A DNA stretch of 64,000 nucleotides from Ignavibacteria bacterium RBG_16_34_14 (lineage in GTDB: Bacteria > Bacteroidota > Ignavibacteria > Ignavibacteriales > Ignavibacteriaceae), in assembly GCA_001802865.1 (NCBI GenBank), contig MHAF01000098.1, positions 35,245-99,244 of the forward strand, given 5' to 3'. Of the stretch, positions 27,465 to 46,539 are shown piece by piece. The stretch's first letter is position 1. Each line of letters starts with the position of its first letter. Under the pieces are notes generated by a model that was given only the letters and a program-made list of their open reading frames with translations, was not told the DNA's origin and made no database searches. The translations under genes and the position numbers were made by a program.

Positions 27465-30224
27465 TCAGTTTACTTGCCAATTTAAAGTGGATTTATAACT
27501 TTTAGTGCTGATATAATTGATCAGGTTATTAAACAAAATTTTTGCGAAAGGATCATTGGAATAATTTTTTGCAATTGGAAAAGTGCAAAAAATTATTCTA
27601 CCTTTATTATACTGCATTTGAACAATGTAACCAGAATTTAAATGAAGCCATCCAACAAACATTCCGGCTAAAACATCAGAAAAATTTGCTTTTGGAATTC
27701 CTGTTATTACCCACTCCGGGGATGTTTGCGTAGTTTCAAATCCAAAACTTTTTGAAAACGAAATATTTTGAAAAACTTCACTTTCACTTCTCATCCAATT
27801 TAAATTTGAAGCCCAATTTCCATCATACCATTCTGTGGTTCTGCTTAATAACTTTATAGGAAAAGAGTCAGGCAGAACCGTATTACTATCTGCTAAACAT
27901 ATTAAATTGGAACCGTTTGATATTAATGACAAAATTTCGTCATCAACCAGATTTGATACAATTAAAGTACTGGAATCATTTATTACATAATTTTCTTTTA
28001 ATTGATCCGCAAAATCATTTAACGAGTATTTAGGATGAAACTTAATTTCTTTTGACAAGATTTTGTTATCAGGATAAATAAAAAGTTCGATAAAATTTTT
28101 AGACAATATTTTCCCATCTTCTACTAGTTCAAATTCAATCTTTTCCTTAGCCGAAATACTTTTGTATGGTAATTTGAACTTTAAAGATTGAATTTGAATC
28201 ACATCTCCTCTCTTTATTTCCGGCACATTAATTATCCCTGATTTCCCATTACTGATTTTCCATTTAAGCTTTGTGTTTTTAAAATTTTTATTGCTGAAAT
28301 GAGAAATGAATAATTCTATTTCAGCTTCTTCTGAAACCAAATAATTATATTTTACAGGTCTTGGAATAATAACATCCTGCTGTTGAATCAGAGGAAGATC
28401 ATCAGAATAAATTTTGAAATTTCTCCACATATCAAGAAGACCGTTACATTCCCAGTTTAAATCAGTAAATTCTGTAATAACATAACCCTGTATCTCTGTA
28501 TTCATCCTTATTGTCTCAATTTCATATTTAAGCGCAGTAAACTGCGCAAGCTGTGATTCTTCGGCAAGATCATTATATGAATTAAATATTTCATCATATT
28601 TATAATCAGAGAATCTTTTAATAAAATCTTTGGGAAGCGAAACGTCAATATCAATGAACTGTCTTTCAATCCACCATGGTAATTGCTCAGAAAGTTTTGG
28701 AAGTCCCCAGTTACCGAATTCAGAAATCAATAAAGGTTCATTCCCGGTTTCCCTGGAATCTCCAAATTCACTAAAAAGCCATTTGGGTCGTTGAGAAAAT
28801 TCTTTAATTGTTTTGTCAAAATTTTTTTTATTATCCGGAATAGACCAGTAAGTATGATAATCGTTAATATCACTTTTTAAATGGAAGTTTCCATAACAAG
28901 GACTATTATCAACCACAAGCCTACCGGTTGCTTTCTCTTTAACTCTGCCAAATTCATTTAATAGCCAGCTTCGTTCTTCTTTTTTTTGAAGATTAATTCC
29001 CCAGCTTTCATTAATTATGCTTATTATAACTAATGATGGATGATTCCAATCTCTTTCAAGCATTTCATCAATTGTTTTTGATCCACGAGCTGCAACTTCT
29101 AAAGAAAAAACATCCCAGTTAGGGATTTCATACCAGACTAATAAACCAACTTCATCAGCAACTTTTAAATAAACCGGATCAGGGACTTTAATGTGGCAAC
29201 GAAGCATATTCAACCCAAGCTGCTTTGCCTTTAACATTTCATTACGTATGTACTCTTCAGAAGGAGTTGTATAAATAGTTTCAGGATAAAAATCCTGATC
29301 GAGCGCAGCAATTAAGTAAAATGGTTCTCCATTTAAATAAAGTTTTTTATTCTTTGCTTCAATTAATCTAAAACCAAATCTTTCAATTATTTTATCTCCA
29401 TTAATTTCTGCTTCAACTTCATACAGGTAGGGTGAGTCAAAACTCCATAGTTGAGGATTATTAATTTTTTCTGTTATTTGTATTTCTGTTTCATTCTTTG
29501 AAATATTTACTTTTTTGTTTAGAACAATCTTTTTATTCCCGTCAGTTATTATTAATTTAATTTTATTATTAGATGGGTCTGGTTTATTTAATTTAATTTT
29601 AACCTCAACAATTCCATCATTTGAAAGTATTATTTTCAAAGATTTAATGAATAAGCCTGGTTTTATAAAAATATTTACATCCTGCCAAATTCCGCTTGTC
29701 TCTACATACCATGATTGTTTACCATGAGGAATATTAAGGTAACTTATTCCTTCTGTCATCGTTTCATTATTAACAGGGTCCATAACCCGTACAACTATTT
29801 CATTTAATCCTTCGTTTATGTAATCCGTAATATCAAACTCAAAAGGAGTATAACCACCTTCATGCTTTCCGACAGAACTATTATTTATGTAAACTTCAGA
29901 TAAATAATCAACGGCATTAAATTTTATTAAGACAATTTTACCCCGATCAATCTTTGAAAGTGTAAAAGATTTTTTATACCAGGCAACTCCCTGGTAATTT
30001 CTTAAATCATCGAATTGTGCTTGCCAGGAAAGAGGAACCACTGAATTTCTAAATTCGCAATTTTTAATTGATTCAATTGTCAAAGCTTTGTTTGAATCGA
30101 TTGTAAATTGCCAATTACCATTTAAAGAAATTGTTTGGGCCGATAACAAGTGATTTATGGTTACTTGAAAAAAAATAATTGTGAGTAAGGAGAACAATAT
30201 TTTTCTGAAAAAGAAACCTGTCAA
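27465..30224 (-). CDS. Secreted glycoside hydrolase family 2 (beta-galactosidase/beta-glucuronidase-like)
   Basis: Signal peptide; WYKKSFTL..VLIKFNAVDYLSEVYINNSSVGKHEGGYTPFEFDIT, SLVIISIINESWG acid/base, GYVITEFTDLNWECNG nucleophile. Confidence 0.9.
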   Translation of the reverse strand: MTGFFFRKILFSLLTIIFFQVTINHLLSAQTISLNGNWQFTIDSNKALTIESIKNCEFRNSVVPLSWQAQFDDLRNYQGVAWYKKSFTLSKIDRGKIVLIKFNAVDYLSEVYINNSSVGKHEGGYTPFEFDITDYINEGLNEIVVRVMDPVNNETMTEGISYLNIPHGKQSWYVETSGIWQDVNIFIKPGLFIKSLKIILSNDGIVEVKIKLNKPDPSNNKIKLIITDGNKKIVLNKKVNISKNETEIQITEKINNPQLWSFDSPYLYEVEAEINGDKIIERFGFRLIEAKNKKLYLNGEPFYLIAALDQDFYPETIYTTPSEEYIRNEMLKAKQLGLNMLRCHIKVPDPVYLKVADEVGLLVWYEIPNWDVFSLEVAARGSKTIDEMLERDWNHPSLVIISIINESWGINLQKKEERSWLLNEFGRVKEKATGRLVVDNSPCYGNFHLKSDINDYHTYWSIPDNKKNFDKTIKEFSQRPKWLFSEFGDSRETGNEPLLISEFGNWGLPKLSEQLPWWIERQFIDIDVSLPKDFIKRFSDYKYDEIFNSYNDLAEESQLAQFTALKYEIETIRMNTEIQGYVITEFTDLNWECNGLLDMWRNFKIYSDDLPLIQQQDVIIPRPVKYNYLVSEEAEIELFISHFSNKNFKNTKLKWKISNGKSGIINVPEIKRGDVIQIQSLKFKLPYKSISAKEKIEFELVEDGKILSKNFIELFIYPDNKILSKEIKFHPKYSLNDFADQLKENYVINDSSTLIVSNLVDDEILSLISNGSNLICLADSNTVLPDSFPIKLLSRTTEWYDGNWASNLNWMRSESEVFQNISFSKSFGFETTQTSPEWVITGIPKANFSDVLAGMFVGWLHLNSGYIVQMQYNKGRIIFCTFPIAKNYSNDPFAKILFNNLINYISTKSYKSTLNWQVN

Positions 30225-31234
30225 TTTACGAGCGATTCCATAATTTTTATTTCTTCTTTACGTTTACTATATGCTGCTGAGTGTCCTTTAAATTCATTTA
30301 AATACCAATTGATTGTCTCTTGCATCCATTCTTTAAACGGAGTAGTCCTATAATTAATATCATTCTTAATTTTTTCCAGACTAAAAAATGCATCCCTTCT
30401 TGTATTAAATGGGAAAACATCCGATCCGGGATAATAGCTTATATCAAGCTTATCAAAGACAGTTTGTTCCAGGTGTACAAGCTCTGGTGAAGTATTCAAT
30501 AATTCACCAAGTGCCTTTAGATATTCATTTAAAGAAAATATTTCCTCTGCAGCAACGTTGTATGACTCACCAATTGTAATATTATATTCAAGAAGATCGC
30601 AGAAAGCTTTTGCTGCATCTTTTACAAAAACCTGTTGAAATCTGAATTCACCGGTACCGGGAACAAGTAAAGGTTTTCCATCTTTGATTCTTTCAATCCA
30701 GAAATAATCGCGGTTTGTAGGATCTTCAGGTCCTGATACAAAAGTCGGACGAAGACATGTGACAGGAAAATATTTTTCATCATGGAAATTCCACAAAACT
30801 GTTTCACATTTTCTTTTATTTATTCCGTAATCCATTCCAAAAGGATTGTTCGGGAAATATTCCATTAACTTATTCTTATCCTGATCTTCCGTAATCGGAC
30901 AAGTTACATCGGCAGAAATCATATAAACTGAAACAGTACTGCAATGGATAAATCTTCCTATTTTTCCTTTGAAAATTTTTGCTGAACTTTCTGATTCTTC
31001 TGGTTTATAAGAGACCATATCGTAAACTACATCAAAGGTTGAATTACTTATAACTTTTTTAAGATCCGATTCATTCTTTCTATCTCCATGTATGATCCGG
31101 AGATTTTTATTTTGTCTCAAAAAGCCCGGCGATTTTCCCCTATTGAAGATCGTAACTTCGTGGTTATGGTTTAATAAATGTTTAACAATATTTCTACTAA
31201 TAAAACCTGTTCCCCCTATTATTAATATTTTCAT
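30221..31234 (-). CDS. NAD-dependent epimerase/dehydratase
   Basis: MKILIIGGTGFISRNIVKHLLNHNHEVTIFNRG Rossmann motif; FGMDYGINKRKCE (YxxxK). Confidence 0.88.
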   Translation of the reverse strand: MKILIIGGTGFISRNIVKHLLNHNHEVTIFNRGKSPGFLRQNKNLRIIHGDRKNESDLKKVISNSTFDVVYDMVSYKPEESESSAKIFKGKIGRFIHCSTVSVYMISADVTCPITEDQDKNKLMEYFPNNPFGMDYGINKRKCETVLWNFHDEKYFPVTCLRPTFVSGPEDPTNRDYFWIERIKDGKPLLVPGTGEFRFQQVFVKDAAKAFCDLLEYNITIGESYNVAAEEIFSLNEYLKALGELLNTSPELVHLEQTVFDKLDISYYPGSDVFPFNTRRDAFFSLEKIKNDINYRTTPFKEWMQETINWYLNEFKGHSAAYSKRKEEIKIMESLVN

Positions 31235-31329: not shown

Positions 31330-32523
31330 TCAGTACTTGCCATAAGTTTTTGCAACTTCAACCATCTTAAAAATATTTGCATCCGGTGTATCTCTTCCAC
31401 ATTGATCCCCGGTTGAAAGAATAAATCCTCCATCATAACCCACAGTATCAATTAATCTTTTACACTTATCTTCAACTTCTTTTGGAGTAGCAGTAAGCAT
31501 AAATTCTGTTGTATTAATATTTCCTTTTATACAAAGTTTATCACCAACAATCTTTTTCACTTGAGCAAGATCAACATTTCCCGTTGGAGGTTCTTCCATT
31601 GGCTCCATTGAAGTCAGATCACTTTCTTTAGCAGCAATTTCTATCAAAGGCCATGATTTTCCGCAGATATGTAGATGAGAAATTATTCCCGCTTCTTTGC
31701 AAATTGTTGAAGCTTTCTGGATAAAAGGGAGTTCATATTTTCTAAAAATAGCAGGAGAGCTTACACTCAAGCTTGCACTTGAACCACCAAGCATTATAAC
31801 ATCCGGTTTTGCTTCAAGCATAGCTTTAACATTTGCAATCGCCCATTCCATCCAGTACTCATGAACTTTATCCATGAAATCAGCATCCATCAAAAAATCC
31901 ATAAAGCACTGCTCAAATCCTCCCTGCCTGTAATGAAACCACCAATCCTGGAAAACAGGAATCATTCCCATATAAATTCCATAATCGCCTATTACATGTT
32001 TATCCTTATATTCTTTTTCCCATTTCCAATCGCTTAATCCCATATAAAGCTGCATCTTTTCAAAATCAGGATAAAGATCTTTAATAGGTTTATCTTCCCG
32101 CCATGGCGGCTCATTGCTAAAGTACATTTCTTTTTCGGTTAGATCACCTTTAGAAGTATGACAGATTCTTTCAACCAATTTTCCTTCAGGCATGTCAATA
32201 ATTTTGCTTTCAAATTCAGGTCTATCCGGACCAATTTGTTTTAAACCGCCATACATATAAAATCCATCCATTCCAAAATATTTGACAGCTTCAACATATA
32301 CTTCACCGTGTGTTGCAGATGTCCAGCCGTTATGTTCTTTTCCGTCAAGATGAATTTCATAAAACGGTCTGCCGTCTAACCTGTCGGGAACCATTACAGA
32401 AATATCCGGACTTACAGGGACATAGTCTGCTTTTTCTCTTCGCATTGCAGTAAGTATTCTTTCTCTGGATGTCATCTCTTTATTCCATTTTTCTTCCCCT
32501 AAGATTTTGGTAGTCTGTTCCAT
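31330..32523 (-). CDS. Uroporphyrinogen decarboxylase (URO-D) family, MtaA-like methyltransferase
   Basis: MTSRERILTAMRREKADYVPV start (start at 32475 is likely); ISHLHICGKSWPLIEIAA (HxC) and ILSTGDQCGRDTPDANIFKM (third Cys) match the HxC...C zinc site of methyltransferase-type UroD proteins. Confidence 0.88.
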   Translation of the reverse strand: MEQTTKILGEEKWNKEMTSRERILTAMRREKADYVPVSPDISVMVPDRLDGRPFYEIHLDGKEHNGWTSATHGEVYVEAVKYFGMDGFYMYGGLKQIGPDRPEFESKIIDMPEGKLVERICHTSKGDLTEKEMYFSNEPPWREDKPIKDLYPDFEKMQLYMGLSDWKWEKEYKDKHVIGDYGIYMGMIPVFQDWWFHYRQGGFEQCFMDFLMDADFMDKVHEYWMEWAIANVKAMLEAKPDVIMLGGSSASLSVSSPAIFRKYELPFIQKASTICKEAGIISHLHICGKSWPLIEIAAKESDLTSMEPMEEPPTGNVDLAQVKKIVGDKLCIKGNINTTEFMLTATPKEVEDKCKRLIDTVGYDGGFILSTGDQCGRDTPDANIFKMVEVAKTYGKY

Positions 32524-34136
32524 GATTCTAATAATTCCTTCAATTTAAAAAATGATCTTTTAGCAGTACTGTCTTCTCTTATTAAACCCCCGTTGCGGAT
32601 GTGTGGTCTGAAGTCAGAGAAATCATACCAGTTAATTGCTTTTATTGTTGGTCGGCTGTAATAAAGAGTATAAACCTGTTCAAGCCATTCCGCCTGCAAT
32701 TCTTCATCCCAGGGGCGATGCCATTCATATGGTTCATCCGGAAGTTTCATTTCACCGGTTGCAATTAATTCTTTAGTTGGACCTGACGATGTTCCGAATT
32801 CAGTTATATAAATTGGTTTACCAAATTTTTCCAGTCTTTCAATTAATCTTACAATATCTGAAAGATCTCTGCGGGGAAAATAAATCTGTATTCCCAGCAC
32901 ATCATATTCAACTCCTGCATCATTTAAATCCTGTAAAAATTTTCTAGGTGAACGAAGGAGACGGGTTGCATCCATTCTTGCCATTCTTCCATTAGCAACG
33001 TATTCAGCCCAGGGAGAACAATTATTAATTATTCTAACAACTTTGGAATTTGCTTCTTTTGTTTTTTCACAAGCAAGCTTTGTTATTTCCGTAATTTGTT
33101 CCGGAGTATGATTATGAATATTGGCCCAGTCATGATATTCATTCACTACTTCCCACTGCAAAACTTTATCTCCATAATGAGTTACAAGATCATATGTATG
33201 CTTTTCAACATATTTTTTCAATTCACCAAAATTTTTATTCTTAAGCCAATCCGGAGTTACAATAGGATGAAACCAGAAGAGTGGTCTTCCCTGCATTGTA
33301 ATATTTTTTGATGAAAGCCAGTTTACAATATTATCCTTCACACCCCAGTTATAAACTCCTTCACTCGGTTCAAATAATTCATACCAGGTATCCCATATAT
33401 AATGAGTGATCGTAGCAAAATTAAAAACCTCTTCAAATCGTTTTGTCATATATTCAGATTTAGCCCATATATACTGCCGGGTTTCGCATCCAAAATAAAC
33501 ATGGTCTTTTCTATTTAATCTTTCAATTTCACTTCGGGCTCTTTCAAGCTCAATCTTTTCTCCTGCCCATAAGGCATATTTTAATGAATCATCAGCATAC
33601 TTAACTGATTTTTCCGGATTGTTTAAAGATTTGGTTGCATCCTCAAATAATTCTTCAGAAAGATTTGTAAGATAATTTACTTCATCAGAAAATATCGTTT
33701 CTTCTTTCTCGTATCTTGCCTTTACATTTCTATTTCGGATTACTCTGCTTTTTGCGAATTCATAATTTAAAATTCCATGTTCAGGAAAATTATTTATGGA
33801 ATAAAATTCTCCACCATTATCAGCTCCGAGCATTACATATCCGAATCCTTCGACATACCATCTTCCATTAATTGAAAATTTTTTATTCTCAAAATCAGAT
33901 GGTACAGTTACTCCATCCTGGGTTACTTTTAAAGATGAAAAAAAAGGGTCTTCATTTTCATCTGCCGCATAAACCCAATCAAATTTTTGCTGCCATGGGT
34001 GTGGATAAGGGCGAAGTATTAAATCTTTATTTGTCTTAGCAAATATCGAGCTCCAATTAATAAATGGTGAAGCGGTGATAGCTGCTGTACTTAATGCAGT
34101 TTTTTTAATAAATAATCTACGATTGATGTTATTCAT
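32499..34136 (-). CDS. GH10-like glycoside hydrolase with twin-arginine leader (array copy 1)
   Basis: MNNINRRLFIKKTALSTAAITA leader; LQWEVVNEYHDWANIHN acid/base; PIYITEFGTSSGP nucleophile. Confidence 0.85.
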   Translation of the reverse strand: MNNINRRLFIKKTALSTAAITASPFINWSSIFAKTNKDLILRPYPHPWQQKFDWVYAADENEDPFFSSLKVTQDGVTVPSDFENKKFSINGRWYVEGFGYVMLGADNGGEFYSINNFPEHGILNYEFAKSRVIRNRNVKARYEKEETIFSDEVNYLTNLSEELFEDATKSLNNPEKSVKYADDSLKYALWAGEKIELERARSEIERLNRKDHVYFGCETRQYIWAKSEYMTKRFEEVFNFATITHYIWDTWYELFEPSEGVYNWGVKDNIVNWLSSKNITMQGRPLFWFHPIVTPDWLKNKNFGELKKYVEKHTYDLVTHYGDKVLQWEVVNEYHDWANIHNHTPEQITEITKLACEKTKEANSKVVRIINNCSPWAEYVANGRMARMDATRLLRSPRKFLQDLNDAGVEYDVLGIQIYFPRRDLSDIVRLIERLEKFGKPIYITEFGTSSGPTKELIATGEMKLPDEPYEWHRPWDEELQAEWLEQVYTLYYSRPTIKAINWYDFSDFRPHIRNGGLIREDSTAKRSFFKLKELLESWNRLPKS

Positions 34137-34171
34137 TTTATCTTCTTAAAGTTTTAATTACAAAGATTAAC

Positions 34172-34189
34172 ACCTCGTTTTAACGAGGT
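34172..34189. repeat. Palindromic hairpin repeat (REP-like)
   Basis: ACCTCGTT-TT-AACGAGGT in the gap between GH10 copies 1 and 2. Confidence 0.65.
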
Positions 34190-34217
34190 TAACTTGGTAG
34201 ATAAGAAAAATTTTAAG

Positions 34218-34233
34218 AACCGTTTCGACGGTT
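34218..34233. repeat. Palindromic hairpin repeat (REP-like)
   Basis: AACCGT-TTCG-ACGGTT. Confidence 0.65.
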
Positions 34234-34313
34234 TAAAAAGAATGAGAAACTGTAGAAATAGTTTTATAATTTAACTTTTTTTATTGCATCCGATTAAAGT
34301 CAAGTGTTAGCTT

Positions 34314-35855
34314 TTAAGGCAGCTTATTCCATTTTTCTTTCAAAGAAAGCAATCGTTTTACAGCTGCTTTTTCTTCTCCTTCAGGTGAACGAAGTAAGCC
34401 CCCCTTATTTAAAAATACTTTTGGGTCAACAAAATCATACCAGTTGGCTGCAGTGATTTGAGATTTGCTGTAAGCATAAGTAAAATTATATTCCAGCCAG
34501 TCAGCCTGTAATTCTTCATCCCAATGCCGATGCCATTCGTAAGGATACATTGAATAATCACCGGGATCAGAGTCAATAAATTCAAGTTTTAATCCAAAAG
34601 AAGGTGCACCAACTTCTGACAGGTGAACTTCTTTTCCAAAGCTCAAAAACCTTTCCGTATTATTAATTGCATCCGCTGCTGAGCGAGATACAAAATAAAG
34701 TTGTGCCCCGATAATATCAAAATCCACATCATTATCCACTAAAGCCTGAATAAACTGATGCGGTGTTCTTTGAACTGATATTGCATTCCGATTTCCCATC
34801 TTCTTTAACTGAATATATTCACCAAAGGGACAGCAGTTATTAATCAATAATTTAATTTTTGGATTAATGCTTCTAGCAACATCGCAGGCAAGTTTAGTTA
34901 CTTCTATTGTTTGTTCTCTTGTTAAAAGAAGTTCATTTGCCCAATCGTGAAGTTCATTAACAACTTCCCATACTTCAATCTCATCCTTATAATGACCTAC
35001 TACTTCGGTAACATGTTTTTCAATCCATTTGAGCAGTTCAGGATATTTTTTTTTCTTCAGCCAGTCAGGCGTAACCCATTCATGAATCCATAATAAAGGA
35101 CGTCCTTCAACAGAAATATTATTTTCTCTTAATTTTTTAAGAACTTCTTCACGAACTGCATATTGTTTCTTTCCCTCTTCAGCTTCAAAATCAACAACAT
35201 CGCCTTTAAGGTAATGAGTGATTGTTGCATAGTTAAAAAGGTTTGTAAATTTTTCCATAAAAAGATTACTGTCCATCTGGAAATAACCACGGGCATCGCA
35301 CCCAAAGAAAAAATCTGCTCTACTTCCAGTTTTATCAATATCAAACCTTGCTTTCTCAAGTTCTATATAATCAGATACGAGTATAGAATATTTTAAGGAT
35401 AGCTGAGAAAGAAGAGAACATTTTTCTTCATTATTTTTAACATGTTCTGCATCATTTAATAATTCCTCGGAAAGATCTTTTAATGCCCTTACTTCCTTTG
35501 AAGGTGACCAATCGTCCCATAAAAATTTATTTAATCTTCTCTGATTGAATTTTACACGGCTGTTTGCGAGTTCATAATTAAGATTTAATATCTTATCTCC
35601 GTCAGAAGGAAGCTTATAAAATTCCCCGCCATTATCAGCAAAACAATAGATATAACCAAAACCTTCAACATTCCACCGGACATGTAAAGCGAATTTTTCC
35701 TTTCCTTCTGTTCCAGAAACTACAATACCTTCTTTGCTTAAAAGAATCTGTGAATGAAATGTATTTTCACTTTCATCAGTCAGATAAATAAGCGGATCAA
35801 TATGAGGTCCGCTTCCTTTTTGAACAAAGTGTGGTTTGAAAATTAAACTACCCAC
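34314..35855 (-). CDS. GH10-like glycoside hydrolase without leader (array copy 2), GTG start directly abutting copy 3 stop
   Basis: EVWEVVNELHDWANE, EVHLSEVGAPSFG; homology to paralogs begins at GSLIFKPHFVQKGSGPHID; start GTG 35855-35853 follows TAA 35858-35856 in the same frame. Confidence 0.85.
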   Translation of the reverse strand: MGSLIFKPHFVQKGSGPHIDPLIYLTDESENTFHSQILLSKEGIVVSGTEGKEKFALHVRWNVEGFGYIYCFADNGGEFYKLPSDGDKILNLNYELANSRVKFNQRRLNKFLWDDWSPSKEVRALKDLSEELLNDAEHVKNNEEKCSLLSQLSLKYSILVSDYIELEKARFDIDKTGSRADFFFGCDARGYFQMDSNLFMEKFTNLFNYATITHYLKGDVVDFEAEEGKKQYAVREEVLKKLRENNISVEGRPLLWIHEWVTPDWLKKKKYPELLKWIEKHVTEVVGHYKDEIEVWEVVNELHDWANELLLTREQTIEVTKLACDVARSINPKIKLLINNCCPFGEYIQLKKMGNRNAISVQRTPHQFIQALVDNDVDFDIIGAQLYFVSRSAADAINNTERFLSFGKEVHLSEVGAPSFGLKLEFIDSDPGDYSMYPYEWHRHWDEELQADWLEYNFTYAYSKSQITAANWYDFVDPKVFLNKGGLLRSPEGEEKAAVKRLLSLKEKWNKLP

Positions 35856-37559
35856 TTAAATATTTTTCCATTTCTCTTTTAAATTTTTCAACCTTGTATA
35901 AGCCGGCTTTATTTCACCTTCAGGGTTTGCAACCAACCCGCCATTTTTTATAAAAGAATAAGGATCAACAAAATCATACCAGTTAATAGCTTCAATCCAT
36001 GGCTTGCTGTACATTATAGTATAAATCTGTTCCATCCATTCCGCCTGAAGTTCAGGATCCCATTCACGATGCCAGCTGTAAGGATGATTTGGTAAAACAT
36101 AATCACCAGATGCAACTGTTTCTTTTGTAGGACCTGAAGTTGTTCCTATCTCGGTTATCTGAATTGGTTTCCCATATTTTTTTAATCTCTCTGTCATCCT
36201 GATTGTATCGGCTAAATCTCTGTTTGTATATTGATAATACAACTGCTGACCCGTAATTGTAAAATCAACTCCAGCCTCATAACAAAGTTTTATAAATTGG
36301 TGTGGTGTAACAAGCTGATTACTTTTATAAACTTCTTTAGTTGTCCAGATCTGTATATAATCAGCATTGATACAGCAGTTGTTTATTAAGCGATGAACTT
36401 TTGGATTAGTATCTTTTGAAACATCAGCAATGAGCTTAGCAATTCCAACGAGTTGATCAGGAAGTAATTTTTGAATATTACCAAAATCATGTGCTTCATT
36501 TATAATTTCCCATGCATACATCTCATTGCCATAATGAGAGACAACTTCCTTAGTATGTTTTTCAACATATTTTAGAACTTCAGGATAACTTTTTTTGATA
36601 AGCCAGTCCGGAGTGCAGCATTCATCAGCCCAAAAAACCGGACGACCTTCAACACTAATATCTTTTTCTTTTAATCTTTTAAATTGTTCATCACGATCTC
36701 CATAATCATAAATCCCTTCCTCCTTCTGGAAACGGGGAAGATAATGAGTTATAGTAGCATAATTAAAAAGATTGGAAAAAAGTTCCATAAAAAGATCTTT
36801 ATCCATCCTTGAAAAACCTTTTGTATCACAGCCGATAAAAAAATTTTCTCTGTTTCCATTCCTCTTAATATCATACCAGGCTTTTTCTATCTCAATTTTT
36901 TCTCCTCCCCACATTGAGTAGTAAAGGGAACTTTGGGAAAGTTTTCCACATTTCTCCCCATTATTTTGAACTTTAACAGCATCTGCAAGATATTCTTCAG
37001 AAAGATCAATGTATGGTTTCAGATCTTTAGATGGCTGCCATCCTTCTTTTATAAATTGGTTTATTCTCTCCCTGTTTTTAGCTGCACGTGATTTTGCAAG
37101 TTCAAAATTAAGGTTGAGATAATTGCTTTTTCCGGTTTCAGGAAGTTCATAAAACTTTCCTTCATTATCTGCAGTCATATAAATGTAACCGAATCCTTCA
37201 ACATTCCATCTTACATTTACACCAAATTTTTCTTTGCCCCCTGCATCTGAAATTTTAATTCCATCTTTCGTTGAAAAAATATTTGAATAAAAAGCATCCC
37301 ATTTAGTATCACTGGCAAAAGCCCAGCTTGGAAAATCCCATTCGGCAGGTCCGATATTCTCAAAAGATTTTATCATTCCCAAATTAGGTCCGGCTCCATC
37401 CTGAACAAAATAAGGCTTGAAAATTAATTCACCTTTTTCTGTAACAGGAATTGTCCTTCTTTTGGTAAGAATTAAAGGAGATGATAAAATTTGGTTGGTA
37501 GCTGCAACAACTCCAGCACTTGCAAGTGCAGATTTTCTGATGAAGTCTCTTCTGTTCAT
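35856..37559 (-). CDS. GH10-like glycoside hydrolase with twin-arginine leader (array copy 3)
   Basis: MNRRDFIRKSALASAGVVAA; YAWEIINEAHDFGN; PIQITEIGTTSGP. Confidence 0.85.
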   Translation of the reverse strand: MNRRDFIRKSALASAGVVAATNQILSSPLILTKRRTIPVTEKGELIFKPYFVQDGAGPNLGMIKSFENIGPAEWDFPSWAFASDTKWDAFYSNIFSTKDGIKISDAGGKEKFGVNVRWNVEGFGYIYMTADNEGKFYELPETGKSNYLNLNFELAKSRAAKNRERINQFIKEGWQPSKDLKPYIDLSEEYLADAVKVQNNGEKCGKLSQSSLYYSMWGGEKIEIEKAWYDIKRNGNRENFFIGCDTKGFSRMDKDLFMELFSNLFNYATITHYLPRFQKEEGIYDYGDRDEQFKRLKEKDISVEGRPVFWADECCTPDWLIKKSYPEVLKYVEKHTKEVVSHYGNEMYAWEIINEAHDFGNIQKLLPDQLVGIAKLIADVSKDTNPKVHRLINNCCINADYIQIWTTKEVYKSNQLVTPHQFIKLCYEAGVDFTITGQQLYYQYTNRDLADTIRMTERLKKYGKPIQITEIGTTSGPTKETVASGDYVLPNHPYSWHREWDPELQAEWMEQIYTIMYSKPWIEAINWYDFVDPYSFIKNGGLVANPEGEIKPAYTRLKNLKEKWKNI

Positions 37560-37567
37560 TGTTTAGC

Positions 37568-39232
37568 TTATAAATTCTTCCATTCTTTTTGCAATGTCAT
37601 TAATCTTTCATACACAAGTTTAATTTCTCCTTTCGGTGATTCTAGTAGTCCCCCCTGCTTAATCCAGGAAAAAGGATCAACAAAATCATACCAGTTAACC
37701 GCTTCAATCCATGATTTACTGTAAGCAAGGGTATAAAGTCCTTCCATCCAATCAGCCTGAATTTCCTGAGTCCAATGCCCATGCCAGATGTAAGGCTCTT
37801 CAGGCAATCCAAGTCTTCCGGTCATAATGGAATCTTTATTCGGACCTGAACTTGCACCAACTTCCGTTAGTTGAACAGGCCTGCCGAATTTTTCCAGACG
37901 TTCGATCAGGATAATTGTATCCTGTAAATCACGGTATGGAAAATACATCTGTTGCCCTGTAACAGTAAAATCAACTTCTGCTTCCACCAGGTCTTCCATA
38001 AATTGAAACGGTGTCCGTTGAGGATAGGTTGCACCAAGCTCTCCCCATTTTTTCAGCTGAACATATTCAGCGTAGGGACAGCAATTATTAATTAAACGAT
38101 GAACTTTCGGGTTTGTATCATTGGCAACTTCACAAGCAAGCTTAGTTACGTTTGTTATTTGTTCGGGAGTGAGCTTTGTTTCATTTGCCCAGTCGTGAGA
38201 TTCATTAACAATTTCCCATGCATACATCTGATCTCCATAATGACCAACAACTTCTTTAACATGTTTTTCAACATATTTCAATATTTCATCATAAGATTTA
38301 TTCCGGAGCCAATCAGGAGTTACGGTTTTATATGGCCAGTAAAGAGGTCTTCCTTCAACAGTAATATTTTTATCTTTTAATCTTTTGAAAACCAGATCTC
38401 TAGTTTCAAATTGTTTTTTATCTTCCTGAGGTTCAAAGTCTTCATAAGTTCCGCTTTCAAGATAATAAGTGATGGTGGCATAATTAAAAATCTCTGTGAA
38501 CAATCTCATAAAAGTTTCGGGATCCATCTGGTAATAACCACGAGCATCGCAGCCAATAAAAAATTCGGGACGGAAGCCAGCCTTTTTTATTTTAAATTTT
38601 GCATAATCAAGCTCTAATTTTTCTCCTCCCCACATTGCATAATAAAGAGATTGCTGAGAAAGCATTCCCATCTTTTCTATATTCAATTCAGCTTTTTCAG
38701 CGTCTTCTAAAAATTCCTCTGAAAGATTAAGAAATGATTTTACTTCTCTTGACGGGGAATAATTATCTTTAGAAAATTTACTCAAGCGATTTCTGTTTCT
38801 TGCAACACGGCTTTTTGCTAATTCAAAATTAAGATTAAGCTCAAGCTGTTTTCCTGAAGGGGGAAGCTGATAAAATTCTCCGCTGTTATCTGCTGTAATG
38901 AAAATATAACCAAAACCTTCAACGTTCCATCTTACATCAACTCCGAATTTTTCTTTTCCATTAGTGTCCGAAATTTTAACCCCTTCTTTTGAAGCAGTTA
39001 TATTTGAAAAAAATGCATCCCATCTTGAATCGCTTGCATAAGCCCAATCAAGCAGATGAGGTCCTTTTCCTTTCTGAACAAAAACAGGTTTAAAAATTAA
39101 TTCTCCCATCGCAGTGTTTTTTGCAATCCTGCTTTTAGTAAGAATTGTCTGGTTGGAGTAAATAAGATTTGGTACAACTGCCAATCCCAATCCTGCAACA
39201 GAGGATTTTTTAATGAAGTCTCTTCGTTTCAT
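37568..39232 (-). CDS. GH10-like glycoside hydrolase with twin-arginine leader (array copy 4)
   Basis: MKRRDFIKKSSVAGLGLAVVP; YAWEIVNESHDWANE; PVQLTEVGASSGP. Confidence 0.85.
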   Translation of the reverse strand: MKRRDFIKKSSVAGLGLAVVPNLIYSNQTILTKSRIAKNTAMGELIFKPVFVQKGKGPHLLDWAYASDSRWDAFFSNITASKEGVKISDTNGKEKFGVDVRWNVEGFGYIFITADNSGEFYQLPPSGKQLELNLNFELAKSRVARNRNRLSKFSKDNYSPSREVKSFLNLSEEFLEDAEKAELNIEKMGMLSQQSLYYAMWGGEKLELDYAKFKIKKAGFRPEFFIGCDARGYYQMDPETFMRLFTEIFNYATITYYLESGTYEDFEPQEDKKQFETRDLVFKRLKDKNITVEGRPLYWPYKTVTPDWLRNKSYDEILKYVEKHVKEVVGHYGDQMYAWEIVNESHDWANETKLTPEQITNVTKLACEVANDTNPKVHRLINNCCPYAEYVQLKKWGELGATYPQRTPFQFMEDLVEAEVDFTVTGQQMYFPYRDLQDTIILIERLEKFGRPVQLTEVGASSGPNKDSIMTGRLGLPEEPYIWHGHWTQEIQADWMEGLYTLAYSKSWIEAVNWYDFVDPFSWIKQGGLLESPKGEIKLVYERLMTLQKEWKNL

Positions 39233-39236
39233 TTAG

Positions 39237-39270
39237 CCTCATCCTAACCCTCTCTCAAAGGGAGAAGGAA
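39237..39270. repeat. REP-like imperfect palindrome
   Basis: CCTCATCCTAACCCTCTCTCAAAGGGAGAAGGAA in the gap between GH10 copies 4 and 5. Confidence 0.55.
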
Positions 39271-39280
39271 TAAAAATTTA

Positions 39281-40948
39281 TTAAATGTTTTTCCACTTCT
39301 CTTTTAAATTTTTCAACCGATGATAAGCAGCTTTCGGTTCTCCTTTTTCAGATTTGAATAATCCGCCATTCTGCATATAAGAATATGGATCAATCAGATC
39401 AAACCAGTTGCAGGCTTTTATATATGGTTTGCTATAAGCAAGAGTGTAAATCTGCTCAAGCCAATCTGCCTGTGTTTCTTCATCCCACTGGTGATGCCAT
39501 AATGGAGGTTCATTTGGCATTTCAACTCTTCCAAGTTTTATGGATCTTTCTGTTATTCCTCCGCTTACTCCAACTTCCGAGTAATGTATTGGTTTGTTAA
39601 ATACGTCGAATCTTTCAGTCATTAAAATTGAATCCTGGAGATCCCTGTAAGGATAGTACATCTGAAGTTCAACAATATCTATGTCAATTCCGGCATCAAG
39701 CAAATCTTTTGTCCATTGCCAGGGAGTTCTTTGTTTAAATTTAGCTTCATTACCCGATGAGTATTGATTCATATGAACATACTCAGCAAATAAACAGCAG
39801 CTGTTAATAGTTGTTTTTACATTTGGAGCAATAGATTTTGAAACATCATTAATTAATCTTGTCAGCTCGGTTATCTGTTCATGATTCAGATTCAATTCAT
39901 TGGCCCAATCATGAAGCTCATTTACAACTTCCATTGCATAAAGCGAATCGCCAAATTTTTTCATTGTATCCGTTGTAAGTTTTTCAGCATACTTTAGGAG
40001 TTCATCATACTTCATATTTCTCAACCAGTCAGGTATACAGCAATCATGAAACCAGAAGAGTAATCTTTCCTGGCACTTAATATTTCTCCGATTAAGTTTA
40101 TTAATTAAAACTTCCCTTGTTTCAGGATTTATAATACCTTTTTCGGATTGATAATCTGACATCATCCCATCGCCTTCTACTACAAAAGTGATGTTTGCAT
40201 AATTAAACAGCTCGCTGAAAAGTTCAAGAAATTTATCCTGGTACATCTGGTAAAAAGCACGTGCATCGCAGCCGATAAAAAAATCTTCCCTGAATTTATT
40301 TTTTGCAATTTCAAATTCTGCTTTTTCCAGCTCCATTTTTTCACTTGCCCAGAGTGCATAATTTAAACTCTTCTGTGAAAGTTCAGCACATAGTTCATCA
40401 TCGCCGGTTTTCGTAGCATCTTTATACAGTTCTTCTGAAAGATCAACAAGCATATTAACTTCTTTTGTTGGAATCCATCCATTTTTTTTCAGATGATCTA
40501 ACCTTATTTTATTTCTTACTACCCTGCTTTTTGCGAACTCATAGTTGAGGTTAAATTCCATTCCTTTCCCATCACGTGGAAGAGAATAAAATTCCCCGCC
40601 ATTGTCTGCAATAATATTTGTGTAACCAAATCCTTCAACGTTCCATCTTCCATTTATGCCAAATTTCTCAACTCCTTTGGAATCAGAAATAGTTATAACA
40701 TCATTTATAAATTGTATATTTGAATGAAATGTATCACAGTTTTGATCCGTTGCCCATACGAGATTGTAAAGATGAGGTCCTCTTCCTTTTTGTACATAGT
40801 AAGGTTTAAAAAGCAATTCACCCTTCAAAGTTCTTTTTGCTGTTCTTGATTTGGTTAATATGGTCGGCGCAGAAAATATTTGTTCGGCCGGCAGTAAAGA
40901 TGTAGAACCAACAATTGTAGATTTTCTTATAAAGTCTCTTCTTTTCAT
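39281..40948 (-). CDS. GH10-like glycoside hydrolase with twin-arginine leader (array copy 5)
   Basis: MKRRDFIRKSTIVGSTSLLP; YAMEVVNELHDWANE; PIHYSEVGVSGGI. Confidence 0.85.
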   Translation of the reverse strand: MKRRDFIRKSTIVGSTSLLPAEQIFSAPTILTKSRTAKRTLKGELLFKPYYVQKGRGPHLYNLVWATDQNCDTFHSNIQFINDVITISDSKGVEKFGINGRWNVEGFGYTNIIADNGGEFYSLPRDGKGMEFNLNYEFAKSRVVRNKIRLDHLKKNGWIPTKEVNMLVDLSEELYKDATKTGDDELCAELSQKSLNYALWASEKMELEKAEFEIAKNKFREDFFIGCDARAFYQMYQDKFLELFSELFNYANITFVVEGDGMMSDYQSEKGIINPETREVLINKLNRRNIKCQERLLFWFHDCCIPDWLRNMKYDELLKYAEKLTTDTMKKFGDSLYAMEVVNELHDWANELNLNHEQITELTRLINDVSKSIAPNVKTTINSCCLFAEYVHMNQYSSGNEAKFKQRTPWQWTKDLLDAGIDIDIVELQMYYPYRDLQDSILMTERFDVFNKPIHYSEVGVSGGITERSIKLGRVEMPNEPPLWHHQWDEETQADWLEQIYTLAYSKPYIKACNWFDLIDPYSYMQNGGLFKSEKGEPKAAYHRLKNLKEKWKNI

Positions 40949-40953: not shown

Positions 40954-42240
40954 TCAGTTTATTGAGGGTTTAATTAATTCTAAATTCTTTTTTCTTGGTT
41001 CTTCAACCATAATTAAAAACCAGATTGCAGATGCAAGAGCAAATATTCCGGCAATTATAAAAACAATATCGTAGCCAAATTGATTTGCGATCCATCCACC
41101 CAACAGTCCTGATAAAATAAACGGAGCTGTAATTAAATTTGTTAAAGATATATACGTAGGTCGATCTTCTTCCAGACAAATTTCTGAAATTATTGTTAAT
41201 CGGGAAACCAGGGTTAATGAAATTGTTAGAGAAGATCCTGCGAAACATAAATAATATATTTCAACTGAAGGTGAGATTAATGCAAACAAACATGCAATGA
41301 ACGTGAAAATAATTCCCCACAATAAATTAATTTTATGGCCGAGCTTATCAGCAAGATATCCGAAATATAAACTTCCGATTACCATACTAAGCATCATAAC
41401 AATTGTAAAATATCCGGCATAGGAATCTGTTAATGAAAATTTATCAAAAGCATTAACAGCAAAGAAAGCATGAGACATTAAAGCCATCATCATCAAAGAA
41501 TCAGCTATTAAGAAATTGCGATAATTTTTTTCTTTTTTAACTATTGAGCCAAGCCTTTTTAAGAATTCTTTTGAAGAAAATGTTTGTTCCGGATGATTTG
41601 GTTTCTCTTCTTTTAAAAAAACCAAAAAGGAATAAGATGCCATTGTAATCAGGAATGCGATTAAAAAAAGTAGTGCAAAGTTTTGAGGAAAAATTATTTC
41701 TGCAAGAATTTTTGAAACCAGCCATCCACCGAAAATTCCTAAAGCTCCTCCAAGAACAGAACGGTAAGCAAATAATCTTCCTCTCAATTGAACAGGAGTT
41801 AATTTTGAGATCAGATCAAACCAGCCAGGAAGATTTATACTACCGCCTAAAGCGGCAAATGCAAGTCCCAAAAAGAAAATTATCAGTGCGGTATTATTGC
41901 TGACTGTTTCAATCAAAAAATAACTAAGTAAAGCCAGGACAAGCCAGGGAATTCTTTGAACTAATGCCGTTTTAAGCACCCATAGTTTTTTAAATCCTAT
42001 TTGCCTGACATAATTGGAAACAAATATCTGCGGGAAGTTAAAACCGATTGACCAGATAACAGGAATAAGTCCAACAGCAATATCACTGCCGCTTATTTTT
42101 TTCACAAAAACAGGAAGAACCGTTTGCATTGATACAAAACTCATCGCAAAAGAATATATTGAACCATCAAAAACATTCAGGAAAAAATTCTTTTTAACAC
42201 TGGAATCCTGAAAGTGTTTAGAAGAGAACCGTTTAAGCAC
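40954..42240 (-). CDS. MFS transporter
   Basis: 428 aa, 10-12 predicted TM segments; FGYLADKLGHKINLLWGIIFT; adjacent to GH42 and the GH10 array. Confidence 0.85.
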   Translation of the reverse strand: MLKRFSSKHFQDSSVKKNFFLNVFDGSIYSFAMSFVSMQTVLPVFVKKISGSDIAVGLIPVIWSIGFNFPQIFVSNYVRQIGFKKLWVLKTALVQRIPWLVLALLSYFLIETVSNNTALIIFFLGLAFAALGGSINLPGWFDLISKLTPVQLRGRLFAYRSVLGGALGIFGGWLVSKILAEIIFPQNFALLFLIAFLITMASYSFLVFLKEEKPNHPEQTFSSKEFLKRLGSIVKKEKNYRNFLIADSLMMMALMSHAFFAVNAFDKFSLTDSYAGYFTIVMMLSMVIGSLYFGYLADKLGHKINLLWGIIFTFIACLFALISPSVEIYYLCFAGSSLTISLTLVSRLTIISEICLEEDRPTYISLTNLITAPFILSGLLGGWIANQFGYDIVFIIAGIFALASAIWFLIMVEEPRKKNLELIKPSIN

Positions 42241-44353
42241 AAAAAACTTTAACCTCTCTTGCTGAAAGTTCCAGAGAAATTGATGAACCGTCTTTTTGTT
42301 TAGCTGATTTTATTTTTTTACCTGTAAACTGCTCAGTAAAAATTTTTATTTCTTTGATTGGAAGTTTTATTGCCGCCAGATTTTTTTTATTCTCAAGATT
42401 TTGAACAATGAGCATTAGCTTATCTTCTTTTGTAAGAAGATCAACTCTGACTTTTTTATTTGTTTCTGGTTTTTTTATATTGGCAACGTATTTAACTAAT
42501 CCAGCAATTAAATCTCCATTTGATTTTATTTTTTCACGATGAAAAACTAAACCAATATATGATCCTATCTGGACTGCTTTCCCTTTTCCATATTCTGAAT
42601 AAGTAATTGCTGGTTCACCCGATTTAAATTTGGCAAGAATTTTAGCTCCTTTAAGAAAGAATGTTTCTTTTACAACTGAGCCAGAAATTTTTGTTCCTTT
42701 TTTTAAAGGAGGAATATCTTTTGTTAAAATAATTTCTTCGGAACCCTTTACAGGTTCAACAACTCCCTGCTTAATCTGGAAAACTTTATCTAAACCATAA
42801 CCGGGAATAACTTTTTCATGATGCCCACTTTCTATATTCCATCCCGCGGTATAACTTTCACAAATTAACACTCCTCCATCCTTTACCCATTTTTCAATCA
42901 CATCAGCAATTTGTTTACTTAGTACATAAGGAAAAGGAATAATTAATACTTTATAGTTTTGAAGAATAGAGGGAAATTCTCTCGGATGAATAAAATCTAT
43001 ACTATAATTTTTTTCATACAGAGCACGATGAAATCCCAAAAGAGAATCAGTTGCATTTTTCTCACTTCCAGTTGAAGCCCATGTAAAGATTTGGTTTTCC
43101 GGATTGTAAAAAATTGCAATTTCGGCTTTAGGAGGTTTTGCATCAAGCAGAAATTCAGAATTCTTCTGTAAAACTTTCCCGACTTCAGAGTAAGATTTTA
43201 ACCAGGGAGTTACAGTTCCATCGAGATAAGTCAATCCCCAGGCTGGAGCTTCTCTTCCTAAGATCTCAGGGCGATACTGCCAGAAAATAAATCCTTTTAA
43301 ATTCCCTGCAATTCCGCTGAAGATTAATCTTTTAATGTCATTTTCATTAATAGCTTTTTGAAGATCTAGAGTATAACCATAAAGCATTAACATTTCTGCT
43401 GATATAACAGGTTTATCTTTTGAACAAGATCGGAGGATATCGATCATAGCAGCATCATCCATTTGAGTGAAGCCGTGAAGATCACCATATTGTCCTACAT
43501 TCCATGGATCATTCGCTGTTGATGTGATGGGAAACCCCTGTATAAAAACATGATGGCACATCAAAGGATGTTTTCCTTTATCTTCATCTTTTGCAATTTC
43601 AAATCTTTGTTTAACATTTTCTCCGATTGTATAAACAAAGAACATCCGCCAATCTATTATATCATTAAAAGTATTTCGTGTAACAGGAATCTCAGCATTA
43701 TCAAATGAATTATAATTCCGGTTCCACGCTTTATTAAGCTCGTTAAGATTTTTGTATTTGTTCTTAAGCCACAGCCTGAATTTTTTTTTACAGTTATCAC
43801 AGTAGCAAAGCATATCACCAATTTTTTCAGCATCATCAGCATATAATCTCATCTCTGCCATACTACTGGTTAATTCCGGTTCGCTTCCTACATTCCATAT
43901 TTCCAGAGCAGGATGATCTTTATATCTCTTTATGGTTTCCCTTAAAAACTTAAATTGATATTCAGTTACTTTTTCATTATTGATACAATACCCCAACCCA
44001 CCAATTTGTCTGTGTGGCTGAGTCTGCGGTCCAATTTTTCTTCCATCCAAAGTTATCATTGAAGCATCTTCATACTTAGTATAAATCCATGCAGGAGCTG
44101 TGTCAAAAATTGTATTCAGCATTACACGAAGTTTAAACTTTTGAGCAAGATCCATCAGCTCATCAATATCATCAAAATAAAATTTATCTTCCGAAGGATT
44201 ATTCCATCTCCACTGCACCCAGAATTTAACTGTATTAAATCCATAAGCAGCCATATTTTTCAAATCTGTTTCCCAATCCTCTTTATGCGGTGAAGGAGCC
44301 CGGTAATATTGAGAACCAAAAGGGAAATATGTTTTGGAGAGTAGTTTTTTCAT
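42233..44353 (-). CDS. GH42 beta-galactosidase-like, cytoplasmic
   Basis: NTVKFWVQWRWNNPSEDKFYFDDIDELMDLAQKFKLRVMLNTIFDTAPAW, CYCDNCKKKFRLWL, PVISAEMLMLYGYT; C-terminal glutamine-amidotransferase-like domain. No signal peptide. Confidence 0.85.
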   Translation of the reverse strand: MKKLLSKTYFPFGSQYYRAPSPHKEDWETDLKNMAAYGFNTVKFWVQWRWNNPSEDKFYFDDIDELMDLAQKFKLRVMLNTIFDTAPAWIYTKYEDASMITLDGRKIGPQTQPHRQIGGLGYCINNEKVTEYQFKFLRETIKRYKDHPALEIWNVGSEPELTSSMAEMRLYADDAEKIGDMLCYCDNCKKKFRLWLKNKYKNLNELNKAWNRNYNSFDNAEIPVTRNTFNDIIDWRMFFVYTIGENVKQRFEIAKDEDKGKHPLMCHHVFIQGFPITSTANDPWNVGQYGDLHGFTQMDDAAMIDILRSCSKDKPVISAEMLMLYGYTLDLQKAINENDIKRLIFSGIAGNLKGFIFWQYRPEILGREAPAWGLTYLDGTVTPWLKSYSEVGKVLQKNSEFLLDAKPPKAEIAIFYNPENQIFTWASTGSEKNATDSLLGFHRALYEKNYSIDFIHPREFPSILQNYKVLIIPFPYVLSKQIADVIEKWVKDGGVLICESYTAGWNIESGHHEKVIPGYGLDKVFQIKQGVVEPVKGSEEIILTKDIPPLKKGTKISGSVVKETFFLKGAKILAKFKSGEPAITYSEYGKGKAVQIGSYIGLVFHREKIKSNGDLIAGLVKYVANIKKPETNKKVRVDLLTKEDKLMLIVQNLENKKNLAAIKLPIKEIKIFTEQFTGKKIKSAKQKDGSSISLELSAREVKVFCA

Positions 44354-44440: not shown

Positions 44441-45367
44441 CTAAACGATAAATTGCGAAAGGTGTTTGTAACCTAATTGTAAACCTTTTTTTACTTTTTC
44501 TTCAGAGCCTTCCCAAACAGGATCCTCATGCTCAATTGATAAAACATAATCATAACTATTCTCTTGTAAAGTAGAAATAAATTCCAGCCAATCAATTTCT
44601 CCTAAACCTGGCATGCGGTAACGCCACCAACCGGATTTCCAAGGAATTGGATCCACCTGTTTACCAAATAACCCATATTTATAAACACCATCCTGAAGAA
44701 TTTCCGTATCCTTGGCATGAGTATGAAAAATTTTTGGTGCAAAATCTTTAACGGCCTTTATATAATCTATTCCAAGCCAATAAAGATGGGAAGGATCAAG
44801 ATTTAATCCAAAATTATTATTTGGAAGTTCATTAAATAATGCTTCCCAAAGTTCAGGTGAATAAGCATAGTTACCGGGAAGACCAAACCTAACCCAGTTT
44901 TCCATTGGACAATTTTCAATCATTATTTTTACATCTTTATCTTCCGCATATTTTAATATTGGTTTAAATACCTGACCAATCTCTTTAATTATTTGTGCAA
45001 CATTTTTATCAGATCTTCCGCCAACAAATGTTCCAACAAGTTTTACATCAAGGAGTGAAGCAGTATCTATTACCTTATAAAGATGCTTTAAATAACTGTC
45101 TCTTTTTTTCTTATCTGGATGAAGATTGTTATCGTAATAAGCCATTGCAGAAATAAACATATTATATTTTGTAAAAAGATCTTTCACTCGTTTCGCATCA
45201 TCTTTTGTAAAATTAGCTGCATCAATTTGTTTTGCCTGATAATCACGTGAAGATTTAGCCGGCCATGCACCTAATTCAAGAGATTTAAATCCTTTCTCTG
45301 AAGCCCATTTAACGAGATCTTCTAATTTTAATTTTGGAAGGCAAGCTGTGAGAAAACCAATTTTCAT
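44441..45367 (-). CDS. Sugar phosphate isomerase/epimerase (xylose isomerase-like TIM barrel)
   Basis: MKIGFLTACLPKLKLEDLVKWASEKGFKSLELGAWP; NNNFGLNLDPSHLYWLGID; IFHTHAKDTE. Confidence 0.9.
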   Translation of the reverse strand: MKIGFLTACLPKLKLEDLVKWASEKGFKSLELGAWPAKSSRDYQAKQIDAANFTKDDAKRVKDLFTKYNMFISAMAYYDNNLHPDKKKRDSYLKHLYKVIDTASLLDVKLVGTFVGGRSDKNVAQIIKEIGQVFKPILKYAEDKDVKIMIENCPMENWVRFGLPGNYAYSPELWEALFNELPNNNFGLNLDPSHLYWLGIDYIKAVKDFAPKIFHTHAKDTEILQDGVYKYGLFGKQVDPIPWKSGWWRYRMPGLGEIDWLEFISTLQENSYDYVLSIEHEDPVWEGSEEKVKKGLQLGYKHLSQFIV

Positions 45368-46539
45368 TTTTGAACCTCAGCCCATCTTTGTTCTTTACTG
45401 CTTTTTAAAACTGCTTCAACAATTTTGTTTTCCCAATGACCATCCTCAAAAGTGGGAAAGTCTTTTTTATCTTTAAGCGGATCTTTCCCTTTACGGATAA
45501 AACTATAAACATTTATAAATAAGTTTTTTGGTCCATCAGGGTAACCTTCCGGATGTCCGCCCGGATAATGAGCATATTTTTTTGCTTCTTCATCTATTAG
45601 TGAAGGATCTTTAATGATTATTTCATTTCCTTTTTCCCTATATCCAAGCCAAAGCTGGTTTGGATCTTCCTGGTTCCAGGAAACAGATTTTTTACTTGCA
45701 TCAATTTCAAACCAGAAATGATTTTTTCTTCCGGCACTTACCTGGGAAACTGTAAAAACTCCGGTTGCACCATTTTCAAACTGAAGCATAACTGAACCTG
45801 CATCTTCAGTATCAATATTTATTTCTTCGTAATCATTGAATAATTTTTCTTTTGATTTAAATGTTTCAACAGATTGTTTAGGTCTTTTTCTTTTTGAATG
45901 AATTGTTGAAAGATTTGCAAAAACTTTTTTTATTTTCAGTCCTGTTATAAACTGAACAAGGTCACACCAATGCGAACCTATATCTGCGACTGCACGGGAT
46001 TTACCCGAGATGTTTGATTCCAGTCTCCAGTTATAATCAGTATTATAATAAAGCCAGTCCTGAAGATAATGACCATAAATTAAATATACATCACCCATTT
46101 CCCCTTTTTCAAATAATCGTTTTGCATGCTGAATAAGTGGATAAAACCTGTAATTAAAATTAATTGCATTAACAATTTTTTTTTCCTTAGCAAGAGAAAT
46201 TAATTCTCCAGATTCTTTTGAAGTAATTGTTAAAGGTTTTTCTGAAATAACATGTTTACCTGCAAGTATAGCTGCTTTATTAATTTTGAAGTGAAGATTA
46301 TTTGGAGTGCAATTGTGAACTACTTCAACTTCTTTATCCTCAATTAATTCTTCCCAGTTCTTATATGATTTAGAAATAAAAAAATCGTCAGCAATTTTAT
46401 CAGCTTTCTCTTTTTCATTCGATGCAACAGCAACAACCTGAACTCCTGGAACTCTTCGTAGTGCTTCTATATGAGCAGATCCAATAAATCCTGTTCCAAT
46501 TACACCTACTTTTATTTTTTTCATGTATTTTTTTATCAA
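45364..46539 (-). CDS. Gfo/Idh/MocA family oxidoreductase
   Basis: KIKVGVIGTGFIGSAHIEALRRVPGVQVVAVAS; GKHVISEKPLTIT; GSHWCDLVQFITG. Confidence 0.93.
   Translation of the reverse strand: MIKKYMKKIKVGVIGTGFIGSAHIEALRRVPGVQVVAVASNEKEKADKIADDFFISKSYKNWEELIEDKEVEVVHNCTPNNLHFKINKAAILAGKHVISEKPLTITSKESGELISLAKEKKIVNAINFNYRFYPLIQHAKRLFEKGEMGDVYLIYGHYLQDWLYYNTDYNWRLESNISGKSRAVADIGSHWCDLVQFITGLKIKKVFANLSTIHSKRKRPKQSVETFKSKEKLFNDYEEINIDTEDAGSVMLQFENGATGVFTVSQVSAGRKNHFWFEIDASKKSVSWNQEDPNQLWLGYREKGNEIIIKDPSLIDEEAKKYAHYPGGHPEGYPDGPKNLFINVYSFIRKGKDPLKDKKDFPTFEDGHWENKIVEAVLKSSKEQRWAEVQK

Follow-up and report, generated by a model that had tools for sequence, protein, structure and literature searches.

Five orthologously distinct GH10-type genes form an array in a conserved catabolic cluster of an Ignavibacteria genome

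The metagenome-assembled genome (MAG) of Ignavibacteria bacterium RBG_16_34_14 (GenBank GCA_001802865.1) contains a tandem array of five genes related to glycoside hydrolase (GH) family 10. The stretch analysed here, the window, comprises 64,000 nucleotides of contig MHAF01000098.1 (positions 35,245 to 99,244); all coordinates below are counted from its first letter. The array spans 32499-40948 and consists of five intact, non-overlapping open reading frames (ORFs), all encoded by the minus strand; they are arranged head to tail, as the original prediction, made from the letters alone, had it. The paralogues are lettered A to E from low to high coordinate, and the order of transcription is E-D-C-B-A; four of them carry an RR signal of the twin-arginine translocation (Tat) type.

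39281-40948, minus strand: GH10-like paralogue E, 555 amino acids (aa), Pfam GH10 match at 8e-9, Tat-type signal RRDFIRK, transcribed first, orthologous group E
37568-39232, minus strand: GH10-like paralogue D, 554 aa, Tat-type signal, the most widely retained group
35856-37559, minus strand: GH10-like paralogue C, 567 aa, Pfam GH10 match, Tat-type signal
34314-35855, minus strand: GH10-like paralogue B, 513 aa, no signal peptide, predicted cytosolic
32499-34136, minus strand: GH10-like paralogue A, 545 aa, Tat-type signal, the deepest branch among the five

All five exceed the curated cut-off of the Pfam GH10 profile (35-77 bits against 22.1; 8e-9 to 2e-21) and are the only proteins to do so in their MAG (2.74 Mb, 78.6% complete), where one weaker match falls on a GH-A-like protein at 48710-50167. 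The predicted catalytic glutamates are in place in the motifs given for them: the acid/base residue in WEVVNE (A, B), WEIINE (C), WEIVNE (D) and MEVVNE (E), the nucleophile in TEFG (A), SEVG (B, E), TEIG (C) and TEVG (D). The genes are tightly spaced: B abuts C, 8 bp separate C from D and 48 bp D from E, and the 177 bp between B and A form the sole longer gap. Two short inverted repeats, ACCGT-CGAA-ACGGT and ACCTCGT-TAAA-ACGAGGT, lie in this gap upstream of A (34172-34237, minus strand) and are a possible processing or attenuation signal. An Rfam scan of the window gave no match, and promoter and terminator scans gave a signal no higher than in shuffled sequence.

The copies are 42-57% identical to one another, and a MAG of the same genus (G001, locus L007) has counterparts of all five at 82-92% identity, so the array is no assembly artefact; together the two observations also rule out a recent duplication, and the old divergence that had been proposed holds. 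Each of A-E is under purifying selection, with dN/dS (nonsynonymous over synonymous substitution rate) of 0.06-0.09 between the window and L007; these ratios are rough, since synonymous changes are near saturation (0.7-1.4), yet clearly below 1.

The copies were placed in two trees. In a quick full-length tree of 91 proteins, with support from the Shimodaira-Hasegawa-like approximate likelihood ratio test (SH-aLRT), each window copy groups with the copies of other taxa and not with its array neighbours (support 99 for A, 100 for B and C, 96 for D, and 100 for E including its early-branching members). A second tree, built from catalytic domains and including canonical GH10s from related genomes as well as two xylanases of solved structure, recovers these five groups again (A 100/100, B 100/99, C 100/100, E 100/99, and a weaker D, 88/79). 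It also places the entire family on one supported branch, apart from the true GH10 xylanases that related genomes encode, which makes the array genes a separate subfamily, the point that a GH10 tree had been proposed to check. A Spirochaetaceae copy is the sister of the family (100/98), and 8b73, the structure of AcXyn10A from Acetivibrio clariflavus, comes next (98/78), in a position made uncertain by long branches. Each group occurs at most once per array, and median identity is 62% within a group against 45% between neighbours of one array.

Gene order is conserved. The order E-D-C-B-A is found in the window and in related loci L007, L012, L013, L023 and L024; L018, L025 and L019 show local swaps, and the remaining loci hold subsets in unchanged order, several loci being cut by contig ends. 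Between-group distance matrices correlate for every pair of groups (Mantel r 0.62-0.87), the observed value being reached in 0 of 2000 permutations. Shared order and correlated distances therefore indicate that the five were inherited or moved together, and independent acquisition of five copies is ruled out on the same grounds. The original prediction had named independent acquisition of copies shared with distant taxa as its refutation: the sharing is real, the independence is not. Likewise, the expansion it described is old but did not take place within this organism, since the copies are five orthologous groups common to distant taxa. A fixed set of five orthologues in fixed order across distant uncultured bacteria argues that selection maintains the unit.

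The fold was examined with an AlphaFold2 model of paralogue D, built from a 42-sequence alignment (predicted local distance difference test score, pLDDT, 89.6; predicted template modelling score 0.88). The model predicts a beta-sandwich at about 44-133, three long helices at 134-218 and a (beta/alpha)8 barrel at 225-552, and its best fold match in the PDB is 8b73 (E 1.8e-19, 23% identity), the matches listed being GH10 xylanases; modelling, which had been suggested as a check, thus returns a GH10 fold. The N-terminal beta-sandwich and three-helix domain, residues 44-222 of D (38567-39103), has no Pfam match, and a PDB sequence search with it found no relative (best E 0.26). Modelled in isolation from one sequence, it reaches a pLDDT of 44. 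The lone Spirochaetaceae homologue (L032) matches across this domain as well. Export signals follow the groups: a Tat-type RR signal is present in A and C wherever the start is present (SRRD and SRRS in the A members L026 and L016), in most E and in many D, the D signal having been lost in some lineages, and is missing from 17 of 17 group B members.

Fixed order, tight spacing and correlated evolution would also be expected if the five proteins formed a hetero-oligomer or multi-enzyme complex, with contacts that the common N-terminal domain could mediate. However, B is predicted to stay in the cytosol, which A, C and E mostly leave, so all five would be unable to meet, and subsets such as D plus A exist; a complex as the reason for the fixed set and order is quite improbable.

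The active site separates the family from canonical GH10 xylanases, in which the residues of TPENxxK, WH and QxH touch xylan. In groups A-E the two glutamates at the ends of strands 4 and 7 (E344 and E457, D numbering) are invariant in 90 of 90 members. By contrast, the -1/-2 subsite residues by which xylan-active GH10s can be recognised (ENxxK, WH, QxH) are replaced in all five: TPENxxK after strand 2 gives way to T-[HYF]-[YV] types, His never directly follows the strand-3 Trp (H, Y, D or A stands one residue later, depending on the group), and strand 6 has QxY in place of QxH in all members checked. As judged from the sequences, these replacements weigh against xylanase function and less against membership of the fold family. 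AcXyn10A, a characterised xylanase (PMC12485897, PMC11966585), lacks TPENxxK but has WH and QxH; the loss of TPENxxK alone is therefore no bar to xylan, and only the WH and QxH changes argue against it.

An array of ordinary GH10 xylanases, amplified to raise the dosage for xylan, would agree with the fold, the Pfam match and a xylanase, AcXyn10A (PMC12485897), as best solved relative. This explanation is nevertheless very improbable: WH has become W followed by a residue other than H and QxH has become QxY, separate true GH10 xylanases (190-350 bits) are present in related genomes, the conserved neighbours GH42, GH2 and GH13 are atypical for xylan, and the copies are old orthologues with no sign of recent amplification. 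"GH10" is thus correct as a name for fold and Pfam family; the label "xylanase" is doubtful.

The array lies within a conserved neighbourhood, whose gene counts were obtained by matching window proteins to ORFs at related loci, several of them truncated. The recurrent order is GH-A-like hydrolase, PF04115, DUF6259, Gfo/Idh, AP_endonuc_2, GH42, major facilitator superfamily (MFS) transporter, the array E-D-C-B-A, URO-D, secreted GH13, NAD epimerase and GH2. The window contains the following members besides the array and the methyl-transfer genes.

48710-50167, minus strand: distant clan-GH-A hydrolase, weak GH53/GH42/GH10 matches, 8 related loci
48231-48695, minus strand: PF04115 (ureidoglycolate-lyase-fold) protein, 10 related loci
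46546-48234, minus strand: DUF6259 (GH101-like barrel) protein, 12 related loci
45364-46539, minus strand: Gfo/Idh/MocA dehydrogenase, closest named family levoglucosan (glycoside-3-) dehydrogenase, below cut-off, 10 related loci
44441-45367, minus strand: AP_endonuc_2-fold (sugar isomerase/lyase-like) protein by Pfam, 15 related loci
42233-44353, minus strand: GH42-like beta-galactosidase, no signal, Pfam 4e-36, PDB matches to beta-galactosidases, 17 related loci
40954-42240, minus strand: MFS transporter, Pfam MFS_1 1e-29, 19 related loci
30221-31234, minus strand: NAD-dependent epimerase/dehydratase, 16 related loci
27465-30224, minus strand: GH2 protein, Sec-type signal, 10 related loci

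A secreted GH13 protein carrying a type IX sorting tail is encoded at 16 loci, including the sister locus L007 (10931-13312); the assignment is by Pfam on L007 and L012 and by phmmer match to L007 elsewhere. In the window the gene is missing from its expected place between 31234 and 31330, where tblastn found no trace of it. At some loci the order is interrupted by PIG-L deacetylase or GH92 genes. Beside a PIG-L deacetylase, between the MFS gene and the array, L017 (5827-8343) and four other loci encode a protein of about 840 aa with no Pfam match; a 400-aa protein, also with no Pfam match, is encoded in the window at 26255-27457 and kept at six related loci beside GH2/NAD epimerase. A glycyl radical enzyme (PFL-like) and an adjacent gene lie downstream of the array in L008 (18422-20707) and L030 (near 20710). 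Apart from the cluster, the window holds a separate galactose/galactan operon at 995-10060: SSF symporter, galactokinase, epimerase, GH5-like protein, GH53 galactanase with sorting tail, and GalT.

Downstream of the array, several genes point to corrinoid-dependent methyl transfer.

31330-32523, minus strand: URO-D / MtaA-CmuA-like methyltransferase, Pfam URO-D 3e-23, overlapping the end of gene A by 25 bp, 10 related loci
24868-26283, minus strand: MtaB-like methyl-donor:corrinoid methyltransferase, an accessory part, in the same place in L081, L084 and L085
24160-24834, minus strand: corrinoid (B12-binding) methyl-carrier protein, by profile matches
23552-24157, minus strand: cupin protein, behind MtaB/corrinoid in three clusters

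The URO-D protein scores 84.5 bits as MtaA/CmuA, under the subfamily cut-off, and has an HxC motif at 285 and Cys375. The MtaB-like protein matches Pfam MtaB over its full length (526 bits) and scores 396 bits against the NCBIfam methanol equivalog, whose cut-off is 720; both partners expected of such a protein, the corrinoid protein (24160-24834) and an MtaA-type protein (31330-32523), are encoded in the same cluster. In a set of 57 relatives, the window's genome is the only one with MtaB. The MtaB-like/corrinoid pair lies downstream within four clusters (window, L081, L084, L085) from two phyla. In L084 and L085 (Fidelibacterota), GH13, one unmatched ORF, NAD epimerase, GH2, MtaB, corrinoid and cupin genes follow one another in the order of the window, which differs in lacking GH13 and the unmatched ORF and in having one further ORF between GH2 and MtaB. 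The MtaB/corrinoid/cupin module is a recurrent but optional part of the cluster.

The scan for loci, which used one genome per species, found 27 that contain the family, labelled Ignavibacteria/Melioribacter, KSB1, Neomarinimicrobiota (Fidelibacterota), Kryptoniota, Rhodothermia and some Bacteroidetes (labels as deposited, which may not be verified taxonomy), and including one lone, distant copy in Spirochaetaceae (L032). Arrays with the orthologous groups were seen in MAGs of Ignavibacteriota, KSB1, Fidelibacterota and Kryptoniota. Family members are present in 11 of 59 close relatives, eight of which have five genes, and in only seven of 396 genomes drawn from the phylum; such a sparse, patchy distribution suits whole-unit transfer or repeated loss. 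Among the papers searched, none describes such an array.

Taken together, the array is best read, with a probability of roughly 60%, as an old cassette: five retaining glycoside hydrolases, orthologously distinct and inherited together, that arose from a GH10-type ancestor, form a subfamily of their own and act as part of a conserved catabolic cluster directed at one complex glycan, probably other than xylan and possibly methylated. In this scheme, an extracellular GH13, present in most relatives, and an outer-membrane route would bring glycan fragments into the periplasm, where the Tat-exported A, C, D and E would cleave related glycosidic bonds by a two-glutamate retaining mechanism, each fitted to another neighbouring sugar or decoration. 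The products would be imported by the MFS carrier and their breakdown completed by the cytosolic B, GH42 and the dehydrogenase/AP-endonuclease-2 pair; the URO-D protein and, in some clusters, MtaB with the corrinoid protein would dispose of methyl groups.

Several points weigh against the cassette as described: substrate and activity of every member are predictions from sequence, several genomes manage with two or three members (e.g., D plus A), MtaB is missing from most array-bearing genomes (it is present in 7 of 24 others), and AcXyn10A, the nearest solved structure, is still a xylanase while lacking TPENxxK. Finally, the catalytic face of the barrel is enriched in invariant columns (P = 0.002) but not significantly in group-specific ones (P = 0.12). 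The sugar in the -1 site may therefore be identical for all five, with its neighbours perhaps differing between copies, and different specificities are an inference. The predicted division of labour agrees with how the groups have evolved and with the presence of both exported and cytosolic members; the placement of the group-specific residues gives it no significant support.

A largely common catalytic face would also be expected if all five cut the same sugar in the same way and differed only in place and regulation, B in the cytosol and the others, partly redundant, in the periplasm. The consistent absence of a signal from B, its loss from some D lineages and the retention of only two or three members in many genomes agree with this. 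Redundant copies, however, are expected to undergo loss or conversion, whereas the orthologous groups remain separate across phylum-level distances, each of them under purifying selection, and the loops behind strands beta2 and beta3 differ consistently by group (positions 257 and 300-302); a single shared cut is rather unlikely.

The recurrence of the MtaB-like/corrinoid pair in four clusters makes an O-methylated or methyl-esterified glycan a reasonable guess; the methyl donor could be methanol released from methyl esters, or methyl ethers of sugars. A tentative and rather unlikely extension is that the cluster represents a previously undescribed system, kept across or passed between phyla, in which five specialised GH10-derived enzymes degrade such a glycan and corrinoid methyltransferases pass its methyl groups on to one-carbon metabolism in the absence of oxygen. 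If true, the methyl link would join anaerobic glycan breakdown to corrinoid methyl transfer. As a cassette, the array marks a GH10 subfamily within a widely shared carbon-degradation cluster and offers a clear test case for why one glycan requires several near-identical folds.

Four known systems bear comparison. Like the MtaABC methanol:corrinoid system, the window clusters MtaB-like, MtaC-like and MtaA/CmuA-like genes; unlike it, these are bacterial and accessory, fall below their NCBIfam equivalog cut-offs and occur in a minority of array-bearing genomes. As in the levoglucosan Lgd and other 3-keto-glycoside pathways, a Gfo/Idh/MocA dehydrogenase gene adjoins that of an AP_endonuc_2-fold protein (PMC7676230), but here it is embedded in a polysaccharide cluster rich in glycoside hydrolases, and its best named match, the LgdA equivalog of NCBIfam, scores 212 bits against a cut-off of 650. 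The clustering of hydrolase, transporter and sugar-processing genes, with a TonB receptor gene at 59256-62159, recalls Bacteroidota polysaccharide utilisation loci; by contrast, the window proteins scanned include no SusD-like match, and the core is made up of an MFS importer, Tat-exported hydrolases and 3-keto-type dehydrogenase genes. Finally, the family shares with GH10 (clan GH-A, PF00331; 8b73) the barrel, the NE-motif acid/base Glu ending strand 4 and the nucleophile Glu ending strand 7. It is only about 23% identical to 8b73 over the structural alignment, has TPENxxK, WH and QxH replaced, and adds an N-terminal beta-sandwich and three-helix domain and the tandem array of five orthologous groups.

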